Source: Candidatus Kuenenia stuttgartensis (lineage in GTDB: Bacteria; Planctomycetota; Planctomycetia; Pirellulales; UBA1268). Taken from it: DNA of 32,866 nucleotides. Under the pieces are notes generated by a model. The model ran no database searches. It saw only the letters and a program-made list of their open reading frames with translations, and was not told where the DNA came from. Position 1 is the first letter of the stretch. Every line of letters begins with the position of its first letter. Location: contig CAMDDA010000011.1 of NCBI GenBank assembly GCA_945890755.1, positions 1-32,866 on the forward strand, given 5' to 3'. The position numbers were made by a program, and so were the translations under genes. This document shows positions 7,865 through 26,653 of the stretch, in pieces.

Positions 7865-9217
<1,353 letters not shown>

Positions 9218-9280
9218 TGAAGAAGATCCTCACGGAGCCTGTGAAACCGCGGAGGCTGCAAACGTGAGACCTCCCCACAG

Positions 9281-9308
9281 AGTCTAAAACCGCCGGAAAC
9301 CCGGTCAA
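9281..9308 (-). promoter_or_regulatory. candidate sigma-70-type promoter for purA
   Basis: On the minus strand, TTGACC (9303-9308) is followed 16 bp later by TAGACT (9281-9286), about 64 bp before the purA GTG and just after the lnt stop. Match quality is good for the -35 box and moderate for the -10 box. Confidence 0.45.
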
Positions 9309-9313
9309 GGGAA

Positions 9314-10861
9314 TCAGCCGGCCGCGGCCCTGCGGTGCCGCCACGCGACCGCCACCACCCCCAGCCCGCAGCACGCGGGGAAGAGACCGCCCAGCCGGCT
9401 GGCGAGCGTGCGTCCCTCCATCAGCGGCGGCCGCGCGGCCAGCGCGCCGCGGACGTGCAGTGGCAGCGCTGCCGTGATCGTGCCCACCGGCGAGATCACA
9501 CACGTCTCGCCGGTGGCGGCGCACCGCAGCAGGCACCGCCGCGTCTCGACCGCCCGGAGCCGGCCCAGCATCCGATGCTGCTCTAGCGTGAGCGGTGCGG
9601 TGAACGCCGAGCCATTGATCAGCGACACGAGGACGTTCGCCCCGTTGGCCACCAGCGACCGGGCCGCCTCCGGGATCATGTCTTCGTAGCACATCATCAC
9701 GCCGAGTCGCGCCTGGCCAGAGGCCAGCACGTTCGCCTCGCTGCCGGCGGTGAGCTCCTCCTGCATCGGAAAATAGCGCTTGATGTCGGGATAGCGATCC
9801 TCACCCGGCACGTACTCGCCAAACGGCATCAAGTGCCGCTTGTGATACCGGCCAGTGATTGAGTGGTCGCGGTCGACGAGGATCGCCGACTGGTACAGCT
9901 GCCGCGGCTTCTCGGGATGGCCGTGGTAGCTCTTGCCGCCGAAGAGCAGCGGACTGACAGGATCGTCGAGCGGCCGCATGCCGGCCCGCGGCGGCCGGGA
10001 GTGTTCCAGCACGCACTCCGTATCGGCGAGTGAGGTGAGCGTGTCGGCGTAGCAGCCGCCGCTGCACTCGGGCCAGCAGACGAGGCCCGTCGCGCCGGAA
10101 GAGGCCGCGTGGGCCTGTCGCGTGAACTCGCGGAGTGCATCGATGCCCCCTTCCTCTTCCGGGTTGGCCTGCACGAGCACGACGTCGATCGTCGGGGCTG
10201 TCGCGGCGACCTGTGTCCAGTGAGCGATCGCCCAGCTTCCGTAGGCAAGGTTGGCTGCACACACCGCCGCAGCGCCTACGACGACGCGTGGGACCGATGT
10301 TCGCCAGCCCGCATGCACGAGCCACACGAGCAGGCCGGCGTGGGCATAGAGCACGAACGTGGAGACTTCCGGGCCGAGGAGATCGACCGCCTGCACGAGG
10401 ACCGGCCAGGCACCCTGGGCATACCCCAGCCGCCATGGAAACACGGCCGGCGCGACCGCCTCGATGGCGACGGCCAGCGCCCCGGCTGGCAGCCAGGCCC
10501 GGAGCGGATCGGGCTGCAACCGTGCGGCGAAGAGCAGCGGTGCCGCCAGTCGCAGAGCATCCCAAAATACGATCGGCGTTGCGATCGCAATGCCGGTGGT
10601 CGCATCGGCATCCATCGCGTAGGCGAGCGCTTCCGGCGTCCAGTGGAAGGCGATCGCGATCGCGGCCATCGCCCCGGCCAGCGTCCAGCCTTCGCCCCAC
10701 CAGCCGCGGATTCGGTGGACGAACGCCAGCGGGATCGCCACGCCGATCCATGCGGCCCAGACGAGCCGCTGGTCGAGCCACGGCGCCGCCATGAAGACGG
10801 CGGCCGTGGCCGCGACGAGCGGTGCCGCGAGCCCGCGTCGTACGGACCCGCGCTGAATCAT
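9314..10861 (-). CDS. lnt: apolipoprotein N-acyltransferase
   Basis: Lnt adds the third acyl chain to diacylated lipoproteins in the inner membrane. The 515-aa protein has an N-terminal block of hydrophobic segments (about 1-210) and a C-terminal nitrilase-fold domain. The catalytic triad is readable: Glu in VCWPECSGG, Lys in YHKRHLMPFGEYVPGE, and Cys in LGVMMCYEDMIPEAAR. LINGSAF and LRAVETRRCLLRCAATGET are further family blocks. The ATG overlaps the upstream small secreted protein's stop as ATGA (10858-10861), so the two are probably co-translated. Confidence 0.9.
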   Translation of the reverse strand: MIQRGSVRRGLAAPLVAATAAVFMAAPWLDQRLVWAAWIGVAIPLAFVHRIRGWWGEGWTLAGAMAAIAIAFHWTPEALAYAMDADATTGIAIATPIVFWDALRLAAPLLFAARLQPDPLRAWLPAGALAVAIEAVAPAVFPWRLGYAQGAWPVLVQAVDLLGPEVSTFVLYAHAGLLVWLVHAGWRTSVPRVVVGAAAVCAANLAYGSWAIAHWTQVAATAPTIDVVLVQANPEEEGGIDALREFTRQAHAASSGATGLVCWPECSGGCYADTLTSLADTECVLEHSRPPRAGMRPLDDPVSPLLFGGKSYHGHPEKPRQLYQSAILVDRDHSITGRYHKRHLMPFGEYVPGEDRYPDIKRYFPMQEELTAGSEANVLASGQARLGVMMCYEDMIPEAARSLVANGANVLVSLINGSAFTAPLTLEQHRMLGRLRAVETRRCLLRCAATGETCVISPVGTITAALPLHVRGALAARPPLMEGRTLASRLGGLFPACCGLGVVAVAWRHRRAAAG

Positions 10862-13670: not shown

Positions 13671-14678
13671 CAGCGTGAGCGACTCACCGCCGGCCCGCGT
13701 CGCCGCGGCCCTCCACACGGCCGGATCGACGTCGTCGGCCACGAACCGCAGCGAGCCATCGGCCATGGCCACGTTCACGCCCCCCGGGTGCCGGCTCCGC
13801 GCCGCCCGCCAGCCGTAGCCCGCGTACATCTTGGCGAGATCGGTCGTGCTCATCAGCGCGGAGAGGCAGTCGAGCGTCGGATCATTCGGCTGGCGGGCAT
13901 GGTTGTAGAGGGTGGTCCGATACTCGCCGTTGGCCCAGGAGAATCCGCGGAGGTCGGTGAAGTTGTAGTAGAAGGGGCGGCTGCATGCGGCGTCGGTGAG
14001 CGGTGCGACGAACACGAATCCGTAGCCGGTCGCCGCCGTGATGCCTGCCGCAGTGCGGCCCGCCGTCGGCCCGTCACCGAGCAGGCTTTCGGAAAAGGCC
14101 ACGGTCTTCGAGAGTCCATCGGCCACGTCCTTGAGCCGCGTGCGGGAGTTGATGCCGAACAGCCCGGTGGTGTCGAACGGCGTGCCGCCGCCGGCGCCGC
14201 TGCCGGTGCACCCGGCATAGTTGGTCGGGCCGAACAGGCTCGATACGGCCGTCATCCGGTCGGCCGGGCAGAGAAAGAGCGGCACCGTCAGCTTCACGAT
14301 CGGTTTGTTCTGCGGTGCGATCGAGTCGGGGGTCAGGCCGATGTAGAGCGGCACCGTGAGGTCGAGCCCTTTGAGCAGCTGCTCCTCCTCGTAGTAGGGC
14401 GAGAGATGCGCGAGCAGCGACCAGCGGAAGAACTGATGCGGAAAGTCGGGCCGGGCCGCCCACTCGCGGGATTCGGCACCGATCGGCAGTCGGCCGCGGG
14501 CTGCCTCATGACTGGCGGAGGCCAGGGCGATCTGCCGCAGGTTGTTGGTGCAACTCGTCCGCCGCGCCGCCTCGCGAGCCGACTGCACCGCCGGCAGCAG
14601 GACGGCGACGAGCGTGCCGATGATCGCGACGACGACGAGCAGCTCGACCAGCGTGACGCCGCGGCGTCTGATGTTCAT
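13665..14678 (-). CDS. DUF1559 pseudopilin-like protein (gene 2)
   Basis: A 337-aa DUF1559 protein with the prepilin-like N-terminus [37 protein letters not shown], then [11 protein letters not shown]. The intact H-X9-DG signature, [17 protein letters not shown], is near the C-terminus. Such proteins occur in large paralogous families in planctomycetes and are processed like type-II secretion pseudopilins. The start overlaps the upstream PEP-CTERM gene's stop as ATGA (14675-14678). The stop TAG lies in a palindromic repeat. Gene 1 at 11409 is the same family, but the two differ strongly outside the N-terminus. Confidence 0.9.
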
Positions 14679-15673
14679 CGGCGCGCCACCCGTCGCCGAA
14701 CCATTGCCGCCGCGGCGGCGATGCCGATCCCGGCCGTGACGATCGTCGAGGGCTCCGGCACCGGCGCGACGACGAGGCCGCCGATCGTGCCGAGCCCGGA
14801 GTTGAACGTGCTGGTGAGGCTGCCGCCGGCGTCGAACTGATAGATCGCGCCGCCGCCGCCCGCGCTGCCCACGATCAGGCCGCCGTCCGAGAGCAGGGCC
14901 AGGGGCGATGCCCCGAACAGCACGTTGGTCGTGCCGAACGGCGAAGTCGTGTCGTTCAGTAGGTTCGTCTGCAGGATGCTGCCGTCCATGATGCTCGACG
15001 TGTAGAGCGTGGTGCCTCGGATCCCGATGCCCGTGGGGCCATAGAGCCCGGTCGCCGTGCCGCCGGCGACAACTTCGCCGACGAACACGCCCGCGGCGTC
15101 GAACTTCACGACCGGTCCCGAGGCATTTTGCGTTCCAAAGTCGTACGTTTGATTGCTGACGTACAACGATCCATCTTGGCCAAACGCGAGCCCCGGACTG
15201 CTGGCGAGCGAGCCGCCCGACGTGTAATCGCTGACGGCGATCGTGCCGCCAGTCGCATTGCCGACTTTGACGATCGTCCCCGTGTCTTCGAAAAACGGAT
15301 TGCGACCGACGAGCAGATCGTTCCCCTTGAATACCAGGCTCCCGGGAAACACCTCGGACGCCGCGAACGTGTAGACCGTGGAGAGTGAGTTATTCGTCAG
15401 GTTGAGCCGCCGGATCGAGGGTACGACCGTCGAAATATTCCCGGACTCACCGATATAGAGATTCCCGTCTGGCCCCAAGGCTAGGCCTGCTGCTCCGACA
15501 ATGGCCCCCGAGCCCGAAAGCGTCACCGCCGTTCCGGCTGGATCGGCAGAGTCGTAGCGAATAATCCTGCCGTCGGTATTGCTCACGGCATACACCGTAT
15601 CTCCCCGCGCGGTGGCAACGAGGGCGGCACAGGCGAGGATAATGACGACAAGGCGGGTGAAGGCGTGGTGCAT
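14675..15673 (-). CDS. PEP-CTERM protein with SMP/NHL-like beta-propeller
   Basis: A 332-aa exported protein with a signal peptide ([17 protein letters not shown]) and repeated propeller-like blades ([48 protein letters not shown]). The C-terminal sorting tail is [20 protein letters not shown] followed by RRR: the PEP motif, a hydrophobic helix and a basic end, recognised by an exosortase. It is translationally coupled to a DUF1559 gene. No exosortase gene lies in the window. The start region shares a 19-bp string, AGGCGTGGTGCATGGCGGG, with the small ORF at 26475. Confidence 0.85.
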
Positions 15674-17293: not shown

Positions 17294-17387
17294 CTGCGGG
17301 GGTTTTGTGGCCGATGTTTTCAGAGTGCGGGAATGGTCCGCCATCCCTGCGCGCTGCGTGTTCGTTTCCAGAAGTCGTTTCCATTCC

Positions 17388-17416
17388 AGGAGCCCGCCCC
17401 ACTCGGGGCGGCTGTC
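17388..17416 (+). promoter_or_regulatory. Shine-Dalgarno separated from the YTV start by a hairpin
   Basis: AGGAG (17388-17392) lies 24 bases before the ATG at 17417, too far for normal initiation. The hairpin CCGCCCC-ACTC-GGGGCGG (17394-17411, 7 bp) between them would leave an effective spacing of about six bases when folded. This supports the start at 17417 and suggests structure-assisted initiation. Confidence 0.45.
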
Positions 17417-19729
17417 ATGAAGAGTACGTGGTTGTGTTGCCTGCTGGCAGTGGCCAGTTTCGTGGCGCCGGTCCCTCGGGCCGACGCCTCGTTCTGCGCC
17501 CTCGCCGGCCACAAACACGGCGTGGTGAAGGTGACTCCGGTCAGCTTCACGCACGGCTGTGCGCGTGAACCGAGTTGTGAGGCGTCGATCGAACCAAGCT
17601 GCGCCGCCCCGCGGACGCGGATGGTCAAGGACGTCGTGTACGAGAAGCAGGAGGTCACCTGCTACAAGACGGTCTGCGAGAAGGTCGTCGAGCAGAAGGA
17701 GATCGACTGCGTCCGGTACGAGACGGACAAGTCGTTCAAAGAGGTCGAATACACCGTCTGCAAGCCGGTGTGGGAGACCCGTTCGCGGACGGTGAACTAC
17801 ACCGTCTGCAAGCCGGTGTGGGAGACCTGCACGAAGGAGATTCCCTACACGGTGTGCAAACCGGTCTACGAGACCCGCGAGGAGACCTACACGGTCTGCA
17901 AGCCGGTCTACGAGACGCGGACACGTGAGATCCGCCACACGGTCTGCAAGCCCGTGTACGAGACCATCACGAAGGAGATCCCCTACACGGTGTGCAAGCC
18001 CGTCTACGAGACCCGTCAGCAGACCTACACCGTCTGCAAGCCGGTCTACGAGACCATGAGCCGTGAGATCCCCTACACCGTGTGCAAGCCGGTCTACGAG
18101 ACGCGCGAGCGGACCTACACGGTCTGCAAGCCGGTCTACGAGACGATGACGAAGGAGATCCCCTACACGGTGTGCAAGCCGGTGTACGAGACCCGCGAGC
18201 AGACCTACACCGTCTGCAAGCCGGTGTACGAGACCCGCACCAAGGAGATCCCCTACACGGTGTGCAAGCCGGTGTATGAGACCCGCGAGCAGACCTACAC
18301 GGTCTGCAAGCCGGTCTACGAGACCTGCACCAAGGAGATTCCCTACACGGTCTGCAAGCCCGTGTACGAGACCCGCCAGGAGACCTACACGGTCTGCAAG
18401 CCGGTGCAGGAAGTCTGCACGAAGGAGATCCCCTACACCGTGTGCAAGCCGGTGTGGGAGACCCGTGAGCGGGACGTCTGCAAGACGGTCTGCAAGCCGG
18501 TGCACTACACGAAGACCGTGAAGGTGTGCAGCGGCCACTGGGAGACGGAGGAGTGCGAGGTTCCCGGTCCGGTGATCACGCGGTGCATCCGCGAGCCCGG
18601 CCACTGGGAGTGCGACTGCTCCGGCAAGCGGTGCTACGTGCCGGGCAAGGTCTGCAAGGTGCAGGAGCAGTGCCCGCCGCGGAAGATCTGCAAGAAGGTG
18701 TGGGTGCCCACGGTCTGCGAGAAGCAGGTGAACTGCGTCCGCTACGAGCGTGAGACCCTCGTCGAGAAGCAGTGCTACAAGGTCTGCACGATGGTTCGCG
18801 AGCAGCGGGTGAAGACCTGCAGCTACACCGTGTGCCGGATGGTGCCGGAAGAGCGGGTTCGCACCTACCAGGTCTGCAAGATGGTGCCCGAGCAGCGGGT
18901 CCGGACGTGCAGCTACCAGGTGTGCAAGATGGTGCCCGAGCAGCGGGTCCGCACCTACCAGGTGTGCCGCATGGTGCCCGAGCAGCGGGTTCGCACCTGC
19001 TCCTACCAGGTGTGCCGCATGGTCCCCGAGCAGCGGGTCCGCACCTACCAGGTGTGCAAGATGGTGCCGGAGCAGCGGGTTCGCACCTGCTCCTACCAGG
19101 TCTGCCGCATGGTGCCGGAGCAGCGGGTCTGCACCTATCAGGTGTGCCGCATGGTGCCGGAGCAGCGGGTTCGGACGTGCACCTACCAGGTGTGCCGCAT
19201 GGTGCCGGAGCAGCGGGTTCGCACCTATCAGGTGTGCCGCATGGTGCCGGAACAGCGGGTTCGGACGTGCACCTACCAGGTGTGCAAGATGGTGCCGGAG
19301 CAGCGGGTTCGCACCTACCAGGTGTGCCGCATGGTGCCGGAGCAGCGGGTTCGCACCTGCTCCTACCAGGTGTGCCGCATGGTGCCCGAGGTTCAGGTGA
19401 AGACCTGCTCCTACCAGGTGTGCACGATGGTGCCCGAGCAGCGGGTGCGGACCTACCAGGTCTGCAAGATGGTGCCCGAGCAGCGTGTCCGCACGTGCAC
19501 CTACAAGGTGTGCCGCATGGTCCGCGAGGAGCGGAGCCGTGAGGAGTGCTACAAGGTCTGCACGATGGTGAAGGAGACGTGCGTGAAGCAGGTGCCGGTG
19601 TGTATCACCCGGCCCGTTCACTACACGAAGACCGTCGAGGTCTGCCGGATGGTGCCGAAGCAGGTCGCCTACACGGTGACCCGCTGCGTGCCGAAGGTGG
19701 TCTACCGCGAGGTCCCCTGCTGCGAGTGA
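17417..19729 (+). CDS. YTV-type cysteine-rich repeat protein (probable cell-wall protein)
   Basis: A 770-aa exported protein with signal peptide MKSTWLCCLLAVASFVAPVPRADA, then about 75 Cys, roughly one residue in ten. Block 1 (from residue 112, DNA 17750) holds 16 units of YTVCKPVYET... in 14- and 16-residue forms. A Cys-rich spacer (HWETEECEVPGPVITRCIRE...) follows. Block 2 (from residue 470, DNA 18824) has 15 units of YQVCRMVPEQRVRT, again in 14- and 16-residue forms, then two looser units. YTV-type Cys-rich repeats are known from cell-wall proteins of Rhodopirellula baltica; disulfide cross-linking of the envelope is the likely role, by inference. The track start (17333) is upstream of the signal peptide, so 17417 is used. 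Confidence 0.85.
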   Translation: MKSTWLCCLLAVASFVAPVPRADASFCALAGHKHGVVKVTPVSFTHGCAREPSCEASIEPSCAAPRTRMVKDVVYEKQEVTCYKTVCEKVVEQKEIDCVRYETDKSFKEVEYTVCKPVWETRSRTVNYTVCKPVWETCTKEIPYTVCKPVYETREETYTVCKPVYETRTREIRHTVCKPVYETITKEIPYTVCKPVYETRQQTYTVCKPVYETMSREIPYTVCKPVYETRERTYTVCKPVYETMTKEIPYTVCKPVYETREQTYTVCKPVYETRTKEIPYTVCKPVYETREQTYTVCKPVYETCTKEIPYTVCKPVYETRQETYTVCKPVQEVCTKEIPYTVCKPVWETRERDVCKTVCKPVHYTKTVKVCSGHWETEECEVPGPVITRCIREPGHWECDCSGKRCYVPGKVCKVQEQCPPRKICKKVWVPTVCEKQVNCVRYERETLVEKQCYKVCTMVREQRVKTCSYTVCRMVPEERVRTYQVCKMVPEQRVRTCSYQVCKMVPEQRVRTYQVCRMVPEQRVRTCSYQVCRMVPEQRVRTYQVCKMVPEQRVRTCSYQVCRMVPEQRVCTYQVCRMVPEQRVRTCTYQVCRMVPEQRVRTYQVCRMVPEQRVRTCTYQVCKMVPEQRVRTYQVCRMVPEQRVRTCSYQVCRMVPEVQVKTCSYQVCTMVPEQRVRTYQVCKMVPEQRVRTCTYKVCRMVREERSREECYKVCTMVKETCVKQVPVCITRPVHYTKTVEVCRMVPKQVAYTVTRCVPKVVYREVPCCE
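17750..18478 (+). repeat. in-gene tandem repeat, YTVCKPVYET block (16 units)
   Basis: Units alternate between 42 and 48 bp, giving a 90-bp super-period over most of the block. Units 1-2 and 4-5 are consecutive long forms. Fifteen units span exactly 684 bp (nine of 16 aa, six of 14 aa). Confidence 0.85.
18824..19501 (+). repeat. in-gene tandem repeat, YQVCRMVPEQRVRT block (15 units)
   Basis: Fifteen units span exactly 678 bp: seven of 14 aa and eight of 16 aa. The long forms carry an extra CS or CT before the next YQV. The 90-bp super-period is the same as in block 1, although the sequence is different. Confidence 0.85.
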
Positions 19730-24407: not shown

Positions 24408-25274
24408 TCATGTGACGGCGAGCCGATCGGCACAATCTCGCATCTCGAAGATCATCCGCTTGAGCAGTTCACCGCGGCGTTGCTGTAGGTCTCCCGGAGC
24501 GATGGGCAACCGGGGCCGTGACAGCGACACGAGAAACTCGGTGTAGGGCTGGGGCTCGATCCAGTCGATGCGCCAGTCGATCACTCCGAGCGTTGCGAGT
24601 TCCAGCACGATCAATTCGAAGCTCGCCGGCGTGAACTGCCAGGCATGGCAATCGACGTATCTGGCGGAAGGAGCCGTTGCCTGCTCGGCGTGGCGGTACG
24701 CCTGTTCCAGCGTGTGGTCGAGCGCGAGTCCTGTGAGCGGCTCGGCTCCCCAGGCGGCCCGGCCGTCGAGGCGGGCGAGATAGGCCACGTGGTCGAAGAG
24801 TTCGGCGTAGCCGTGCCGTGTCGCGCCGGCCCGGTGGGCGGCCAGCACCCGGCCGGTGGTGGACATGGGCCGAAACACGTCGAAGCAGAGCCGGCGATCG
24901 GGAAGCGCGAGCCGCAGCAGGCCGGAGCGGGAATCGACGAGCGCCTCGGCCGCCTTGAAGAAGCCGATCGGGTCGGGCACGTGCTCGAGCACATGGCTGG
25001 CGATGACCGCGGCATAGCTGCCGCGGTCGTGGGCCGGAAAGGCATCCGCGAGCGGCCCGCCCGCCCAGATGACGTCGACCTCCTCGATCCGCGACGTGTC
25101 GACGGATGGATCGCGTTCGTACTTGGCCACCAACGCGGCACGATCGCCGTGGTCGACGACGGTGGTTCGCCAGCCGGCGGCCTTGGCCGCCACGGGCCCG
25201 TAGCTGGGGCCGATCTCGATCACGCGGCTGTCGTGCGTCAATCCGGAGAGCAGGAGCGATGTGCGGTCGAGCAT
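24408..25274 (-). CDS. SAM-dependent methyltransferase, inverted paralogue
   Basis: A 288-aa protein closely related to the gene at 23475: shared blocks include VIEIGPSYGPVAAKAAGW, TTVVDHGDRAALVAKY, IASHVLEHVPDPIGF, LALPDRRLCFDVFRP and CHAWQFTPASFELIVLELATLGVIDWRIDWI. Motif I here retains more of the canonical glycines than in its paralogue. The two genes are tail to tail with six bases between the stops, which suggests an inverted duplication. The catalytic target is not known. The start is the ATG at 25274. Confidence 0.72.
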   Translation of the reverse strand: MLDRTSLLLSGLTHDSRVIEIGPSYGPVAAKAAGWRTTVVDHGDRAALVAKYERDPSVDTSRIEEVDVIWAGGPLADAFPAHDRGSYAAVIASHVLEHVPDPIGFFKAAEALVDSRSGLLRLALPDRRLCFDVFRPMSTTGRVLAAHRAGATRHGYAELFDHVAYLARLDGRAAWGAEPLTGLALDHTLEQAYRHAEQATAPSARYVDCHAWQFTPASFELIVLELATLGVIDWRIDWIEPQPYTEFLVSLSRPRLPIAPGDLQQRRGELLKRMIFEMRDCADRLAVT

Positions 25275-25354
25275 GGGCCGACGAATAGCCCGAGACTCCA
25301 GGCGGCCACAACCCCGGCCTCAAAAATCTCGCCCGAGGCAGGCTGCACTCGGGT

Positions 25355-25372
25355 TTGGCACGGACCTTGCAT
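25355..25372 (+). promoter_or_regulatory. sigma-54 (RpoN) promoter
   Basis: TTGGCACGGACCTTGCAT contains TGGCACG-N4-TTGCA, essentially the consensus -24/-12 element with the correct GG and GC spacing. It lies about 150 bp upstream of the PEP-CTERM gene on the same strand. Transcription would begin near 25380 and need an enhancer-binding activator. Confidence 0.85.
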
Positions 25373-25436
25373 TACAGGACTCGTAGTCTGCGAGACGGAG
25401 GTTTTACAGGCCTTGTCATGCAGAAAACCACCGTGG

Positions 25437-25478
25437 CCTCACCATTGTGGTGAGGGCCGAATCACCATTTTTGTGAGC
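25437..25478 (+). other. 5'-leader hairpins of the PEP-CTERM gene
   Basis: CCTCACC-ATTGT-GGTGAGG (25437-25455) is a perfect 7-bp stem. It is followed by a weaker sister, TCAC-CATTTTT-GTGA, about 8 bp later. Both lie in the transcript between the sigma-54 promoter and the start codon. No T-run follows, so neither is an intrinsic terminator. Confidence 0.45.
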
Positions 25479-25524: not shown

Positions 25525-26316
25525 ATGAGATTCCGCACGGTCGCGACCGCCGTGGCAGTCGCCGCCCTCACTCTCCCCTTTGCCCAGACGGCCCGGGCCG
25601 CCGCCATCCAGGGCCTGTTCAACACTGGCGTCAGCGGGTCGGGCACGGCCCTGGCTCAGAATGAAATCGACCCCCACTGGACCATCTCGGCCAGCCCCTT
25701 CGAGGCGACCCGAAGCGGCACGACGACGATCACGGGCACGGTGCCCAACTTCTACAACGGCGAAGCGCGGGCCGACTGGGTCAATGCATGGACGTCAGAG
25801 ACGGCCAACTCGGGGACGTCAACGTGGATCACGCCGAATCTGGCGTCGCTCCTGCCTGGTCAATTCGAAGACCAGGACGTGAACGGCAACATGGGTCTCT
25901 ACACGTTCCGCACCACCTTCACGATCCCCGAGGCCTTCGCGTCAGCCCAGATCACCGGCCTGTGGGCGGCCGACAATTACGGCGGCGAGGTGCCCGATTT
26001 TGAAGACAATACTCCCGACGTAAGCCAGATCACGAACTACATCCGCCTCAACGGCACCGAAATCACGCCGGGCCTGCTCCAATACGACTTCACCGCCCGC
26101 GCGTTCACGATTTCGACCGGATTCATTCAGGGCGAAAACATCCTTGAATTCAACGTTTCAAACACGATCGGGGATTTCGCGCCAAATCCGATCGGCACGC
26201 AGATCGTGTTCACATCGGCGACCTACGCCGTCCCCGAACCCTCGGTGTCGATTCTCGCCGCGAGCGGCCTCGGAATCGCCGGCTTCCGCCACGTGCGTCG
26301 CCGCAGAAAGGCATGA
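25525..26316 (+). CDS. PEP-CTERM sorting-domain protein
   Basis: A 263-aa exported protein with signal peptide MRFRTVATAVAVAALTLPFAQTARA and a beta-rich domain of no family I recognise (GLYTFRTTFTIPEAFASAQITGLWAADNYGGEVPDFEDN). The C-terminal sorting signal is VPEPSVSILAASGLGIAGFR followed by a basic end. AAGGAG (25512-25517) lies seven bases before the ATG. The gene is monocistronic and preceded by a sigma-54 promoter, an arrangement known for PEP-CTERM/exosortase regulons in some bacteria. A position next to the glycan operon fits the known association of PEP-CTERM proteins with exopolysaccharide loci. Confidence 0.85.
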   Translation: MRFRTVATAVAVAALTLPFAQTARAAAIQGLFNTGVSGSGTALAQNEIDPHWTISASPFEATRSGTTTITGTVPNFYNGEARADWVNAWTSETANSGTSTWITPNLASLLPGQFEDQDVNGNMGLYTFRTTFTIPEAFASAQITGLWAADNYGGEVPDFEDNTPDVSQITNYIRLNGTEITPGLLQYDFTARAFTISTGFIQGENILEFNVSNTIGDFAPNPIGTQIVFTSATYAVPEPSVSILAASGLGIAGFRHVRRRRKA

Positions 26317-26559: not shown

Positions 26560-26653
26560 GACCGCGGACACCGTGTTCAATCCGTCCGCCGCATCACCCC
26601 TCTTTCGGGCGGTGCTTCTGGGCGATCCGCCCCCTCCTTACGCGCATCCATTC

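Follow-up and report, generated by a model that had tools for sequence, protein, structure and literature searches.

Sigma-54 control of PEP-CTERM genes through a separate activator box is a known idea (Haft 2006, PMC1569441). The PrsR box described there has 17 nt ending in TTTACA and precedes the sigma-54 site by about 63 nt; the motif was found in Proteobacteria only and was missing from PEP-CTERM genes elsewhere (PMC1569441). Experimental support exists for Aquincola tertiaricarbonis, in which pepA is RpoN-dependent (PMC9850573). Sigma-54 control of PEP-CTERM surface proteins had been described for Proteobacteria only; PEP-CTERM goes unmentioned in a 2025 survey of sigma-54 regulons across phyla, Planctomycetia among them (PMC12316311). 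Activator sites can also lie downstream of sigma-54 promoters, as indicated for FleQ and FlbD by titles cited in PMC10723142 and PMC3096577.

Here we analyse a 32,866-nt stretch of planctomycete DNA (the window), contig C11 of a 3.44-Mb assembly in 309 contigs that is 88% complete; the close relatives are lake MAGs named Pirellulales or Planctomycetia. We consider it probable, at roughly 0.7, that the -24/-12 element at 25355-25372 is a real sigma-54 promoter of the PEP-CTERM gene 25525-26316 and belongs to a Pirellulales regulon whose AAA+ activator binds TCACCA-N3-TGGTGA. Judged against the open-access literature, the box-marked sigma-54 gene group of lake planctomycetes looks like a previously undescribed one.

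The -24/-12 element and its gene

The window features considered are as follows.
14675-15673, minus strand: the other PEP-CTERM gene of the window; neither a sigma-54 site nor a box upstream
24408-25274, minus strand: divergent methyltransferase-like gene; no sigma-54 site nearby on its own strand
25355-25372, plus strand: predicted sigma-54 -24/-12 promoter, TTGGCACGGACCTTGCAT; exact consensus match, one of four in the genome
25418-25453, plus strand: short leader ORF, MQKTTVASPLW; no match to the 18-aa ORF conserved in leaders of relatives
25439-25453, unstranded: activator-type box 1, TCACCATTGTGGTGA; perfect 6-3-6 palindrome, sole exact copy in the genome
25462-25476, unstranded: activator-type box 2, TCACCATTTTTGTGA; palindrome with one mismatch, the centres of the two boxes 23 bp apart
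25525-26316, plus strand: PEP-CTERM gene, 263 aa; PF07589 above cut-off, homolog family alignment A1

Compared with the established sigma-54 -24/-12 consensus, TTTGGCACGGACCTTGCATTA at 25354-25374 is a full match with correct GG/GC spacing, and the letters at 25355-25372 are exactly those quoted in the original prediction. This is the sole 0-mismatch match to TGGCACNNNNNTTGCW within the window. At up to two mismatches the window holds 9 matches, as against 10.9 in shuffled sequences; since relaxed matches are no commoner than in shuffles, only the exact match is informative. The site lies 153 bp from the ATG of 25525-26316, and transcription would be expected to start at about 25381. Between 24900 and 26700, a search for sigma-70-like promoters found none. 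A search for a further sigma-54 site 3' of the boxes gave just one 2-mismatch match, at 25641 within the gene, and this was ruled out as a second promoter because the signal peptide and the homolog alignment set the start at 25525. On the other side of the element, an inverted repeat, CCCGAG-N10-CTCGGG (25332-25353), ends 2 bp before the -24 element and is possibly the site of another regulator.

The product of 25525-26316 has a signal-peptide-like N-terminus and a C-terminal PEP-transmembrane-Arg motif (PF07589, 23.0 against a cut-off of 20.7). The gene that follows, an LL-diaminopimelate aminotransferase, starts only at 26573 or 26663, so 25525-26316 is probably transcribed alone as a single-gene unit, in keeping with its earlier description as a lone PEP-CTERM gene. 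Homologs are sparse. The closest one with an intact locus, from the same genus, is 43% identical over the alignment and is likewise preceded by an exact site, TGGCACATCGTTTGCA, at a distance of 83 bp from its start. Among ten homologs, nine have an upstream sigma-54-like site with at most two mismatches, and in seven the site has none or one. Elsewhere in the window, 17333-19729 encodes a large Cys-rich protein of about 800 aa with YTVCKPVYET and RMVPEQRVRT repeats, a type known from planctomycetes.

In the 3.4-Mb genome, the exact pattern TGGCAC-N5-TTGCW occurs four times and the reversed control pattern twice, a difference in raw count that is not significant by itself. The placement of the four sites is non-random: all of them precede correctly oriented genes, at about 70-220 bp, namely the window PEP-CTERM gene, a PEP-CTERM gene on contig C62, glnB (C216) and dnaK (C234). 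The last site, at C234:1112-1127, is about 95 bp before dnaK and agrees with a report that the DnaK cluster is enriched among the genes predicted to be under sigma-54 in Planctomycetia (PMC12316311).

A profile search of the genome found rpoN, on whose presence the original prediction depended (TIGR02395, 376 bits at C63, cut-off 277), together with 8 strong enhancer-binding activator genes. PEP-CTERM genes above or near the cut-off number 32. A site with no or one mismatch within 500 bp upstream was found for two of these, the window gene and that on C62, the latter with an exact site that emerged from the genome scan that had been proposed; a third, on C154, is reached by a sigma-54 site via an upstream gene. 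About 29 of the 32 are without a site. Since a good site stands directly upstream of just two, sigma-54 is not the general PEP-CTERM control in this genome. The gene at 15673 is among those without one, even at three mismatches with GG/GC kept, which supports the expectation that the two PEP-CTERM genes of the window are under different control.

At the C62 locus (7866-10550), a receiver-less activator gene is divergent to the PEP-CTERM gene. The intergenic region shared by the two carries TTGCGAA repeats, including TTCGCAA-N3-TTGCGAA, which is probably the divergent activator's own box. The PEP-CTERM gene is directly followed by one with a MEKHLA domain (PF08670, 6e-52).

A palindromic box linked to sigma-54 sites

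The box TCACCA-N3-TGGTGA was first exposed, post hoc, by homolog comparison. The sole exact TCACCANNNTGGTGA box of the genome is 83 bp from the -24/-12 site, and by our own rough arithmetic the chance of an exact box and an exact site co-locating is about 2e-4. Counted from the -24 element, the two window boxes follow at 83 and 106 bp, which puts them about 65 and 88 bp past the expected transcription start, between promoter and ATG. In the four other box-bearing homologs, unlike in the window, the boxes lie upstream of the promoter. Tandem second boxes recur in relatives, and four relatives (L141, L166, L167, L170) have a box downstream only. A role of the boxes for the divergent methyltransferase was rejected, as the search of the minus strand gave no sigma-54 site.

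The short ORF in the window leader is probably incidental. At five relative loci (L163, L164, L166, L167, L170), an ORF of 18-24 aa, such as MMVVAHGITSEEVVWTRR-stop, stands between the sigma-54 site and the double box. It resembles the N-terminal end of the receiver-like protein described below, and is perhaps a duplicated, truncated promoter-plus-start.

Among family genomes, 38 of 60 have the box, often clustered at distances of 18-40 or about 83 bp, and the reversed control is far rarer. Counts of sigma-54-like sites were 37 in the 33 kb within 300 bp of boxes and 4 in the remaining 126 kb of these loci, a 35-fold difference in density measured against a background that is largely coding sequence. 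Usually the box precedes the sigma-54 site by 105-217 bp, and behind these loci stand many PEP-CTERM genes and a conserved receiver-fold protein of about 160-170 aa. Where the box stands upstream of a promoter, its flanking bases show no covariation, in line with DNA that is bound by a protein and not with a hairpin in RNA; in leader boxes the covariation is weak. Outside the family, at the order level, many boxes are in coding sequence and nearby sigma-54 enrichment is about twofold overall; these boxes were rejected as a general signal, only families f2, f7, f11, f18 and f19 looking real.

The conserved linkage of box and sigma-54 site, over a background near zero, makes an enhancer-bound activator at box-linked sigma-54 promoters a well-supported prediction. 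The need for such an activator, claimed originally from the promoter type, is supported by rpoN, the 8 activator genes and the conserved boxes. At seven loci (L214, L222, L223, L226, L182, L185, L180) we also observed a tandem of sigma-54 site, box and sigma-54 site in the same direction, the two sites being about 370-740 bp apart, and this arrangement is conserved across families of the order.

Candidate activator and receiver-like protein

Phyletic profiling covered two of the 8 activators, the C6 type and C218 as a control. The C6 activator (C6:18202-19401) has no receiver domain. By our own tabulation, its orthologs are found in 19 of 23 genomes with box plus sigma-54 site and in 2 of 8 without (Fisher p 0.006); counted by genus, the figures are 6/6 and 0/4 (p 0.005). 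Two genomes, G009 and G015, have box plus sigma-54 site and no clear C6-type ortholog. C218, the best PrsR scorer, occurs throughout the genera of the family, also in those free of box plus sigma-54 site, and is absent from the box-bearing families f7, f11 and f18; it was therefore dismissed as the cognate activator. In one genome, G078, a double box stands directly 3' of the C6-type gene. Within the family, no adjoining box and no box/sigma-54 autoregulation of the C6-type gene was seen, and box-type autoregulation of this activator was rejected. From the phyletic profile only, C6:18202-19401 appears to be the most likely activator of the box, an assignment we hold at slightly below even odds.

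The receiver-like protein provided an independent test, in which 53 loci were chosen by protein search with this protein alone in named genomes. A distant homolog was found in Lacipirellula limnantheis. For the 27 close loci with upstream sequence, sigma-54 sites are present in 25 and boxes likewise in 25, in a fixed order; 107 kb of downstream background at the receiver-like loci contain no sigma-54 site and about one box. A Pfam search with the box-linked 160-aa protein matched no family. Its structural model (pLDDT 82) has the (beta-alpha)5 receiver topology, and the best PDB matches of the model are receivers, including that of NtrC1. In the family alignment the phospho-acceptor Asp, D81, is invariant, and the conserved beta5 Lys of receivers is missing, being replaced in a YLPG segment (alignments A2/A3). 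As modelled, the protein is a stand-alone receiver-fold protein. The genome has its own copy:
C154:954-1436: receiver-like protein; box (one mismatch) at 635, sigma-54 site at 843, then a PEP-CTERM gene

It is plausible that this copy acts as an activator partner or feedback element. At four relative loci (L197, L198, L199, L191) a conserved gene order follows the box, consisting of the receiver-like protein, a PEP-CTERM protein that appears by eye to be formylglycine-enzyme-like, a Ser/Thr-kinase-like protein and a small CNVCH-motif protein.

Possible modes of control and relation to known systems

In the mechanism that we propose, an AAA+ enhancer-binding activator would bind the TCACCA-N3-TGGTGA boxes and oligomerise; it would then reach the closed sigma-54 polymerase at 25356 through a DNA loop and, using ATP, open the promoter. 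The likeliest activator would be the receiver-less C6 protein, with the receiver-fold protein of C154 as partner or feedback element. In the window the activator would work from boxes that follow the transcription start by about 65 and 88 bp. We regard activation from downstream boxes as the best reading for the window, with even chances of being correct.

The main rival accepts the -24/-12 site as real and takes the downstream boxes as the place where a repressor or road-block, be it the same protein or another, would silence the promoter. The position of the boxes 3' of the transcription start, between promoter and ATG, suits it, and by analogy Caulobacter FlbD might be invoked, an activator that is also a repressor at ftr elements, as the title of Benson 1994 cited in PMC3096577 indicates. 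However, most relatives have the same box at enhancer distance upstream of their sigma-54 sites, and downstream enhancers are known from FleQ and FlbD, as far as titles in PMC10723142 and PMC3096577 indicate; we consider repression unlikely. That the boxes act in RNA, the two palindromes forming alternative hairpins that attenuate the transcript, seems improbable. The leader palindromes could pair within or between boxes, and a terminator-like stem (25447-25468) is followed by TTTTTG, but the leader fold has a z-score of only -1.5, flank covariation is not above composition in upstream boxes and weak in leader boxes, and boxes upstream of a promoter would not be part of the RNA made from it.

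Improbable, too, is a chance match, with the gene transcribed from another promoter. The low genomic count, 4 exact sites against 2 for the reversed control, favours it; against it stand the position of all four sites before genes, the exact site retained by the ortholog and the unique box at 83 bp, and no sigma-70-like site was seen. Very improbable, finally, is an exosortase regulon of the proteobacterial PrsK/PrsR type, which the original prediction had offered as a model. The logic is the same, combining a PEP-CTERM gene, a sigma-54 promoter and NtrC-family activators, and pepA of Aquincola is RpoN-dependent (PMC9850573). The search for a PrsR-like activator, also suggested at the outset, scanned all 8 activators of the 88%-complete genome with TIGR02915 and returned a best score of 350 bits against a cut-off of 502.6, so a PrsR assignment was rejected. 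The box sequence differs from the PrsR motif, which Haft 2006 found limited to Proteobacteria (PMC1569441). By eye, PrsR motif 1 is represented by no more than a single TTTACA, which lies in the leader and 3' of the sigma-54 site.

Extending the proposed activation further, we tentatively picture a Pirellulales circuit, which is rather doubtful as a whole, in which a receiver-less activator on the box would be governed in trans by a receiver-like protein made from the same type of promoter, the enhancer having moved into some leaders, including that of the window. If true, this would be a split response regulator with feedback for exported PEP-CTERM proteins. The analysis provides Planctomycetes with a specific, searchable enhancer sequence and a target gene list, and a shortlist of two candidate proteins for switching on exported surface proteins, the C6-type activator and the receiver-like protein.

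The locus resembles the proteobacterial PrsK-PrsR regulon in its single-gene PEP-CTERM units, long leader, -24/-12 promoter and separate repeated box. It differs in that the box is TCACCA-N3-TGGTGA and not a 17-nt motif ending in TTTACA, that the typical box distance is 105-217 bp and not about 63, that no PrsR lies above cut-off, that the phylum is another, and that only a minority of the PEP-CTERM genes of this genome is concerned; moreover, the window box is downstream of the promoter. Since sequence, distance, activator and phylum all differ, we set the system apart from PrsR/PrsK.

The enterobacterial NtrC box is TGCACCA-N3-TGGTGCA. The boxes reported here share with it the CACCA/TGGTG half-sites, the 3-bp spacer and clustering upstream of sigma-54 promoters, but have TCACCA for GCACCA, a likeliest activator that is receiver-less, and PEP-CTERM genes as targets. 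As in Aquincola pepA, a PEP-CTERM gene has a promoter with TGGCAC and a -12 GC, mapped in Aquincola and predicted from sequence here, although A. tertiaricarbonis is a Proteobacterium with PrsK/PrsR/PrsT. The window boxes resemble the FleQ and FlbD downstream enhancers in lying 3' of a sigma-54 promoter, whereas those enhancers serve flagellar genes and have other binding sequences.
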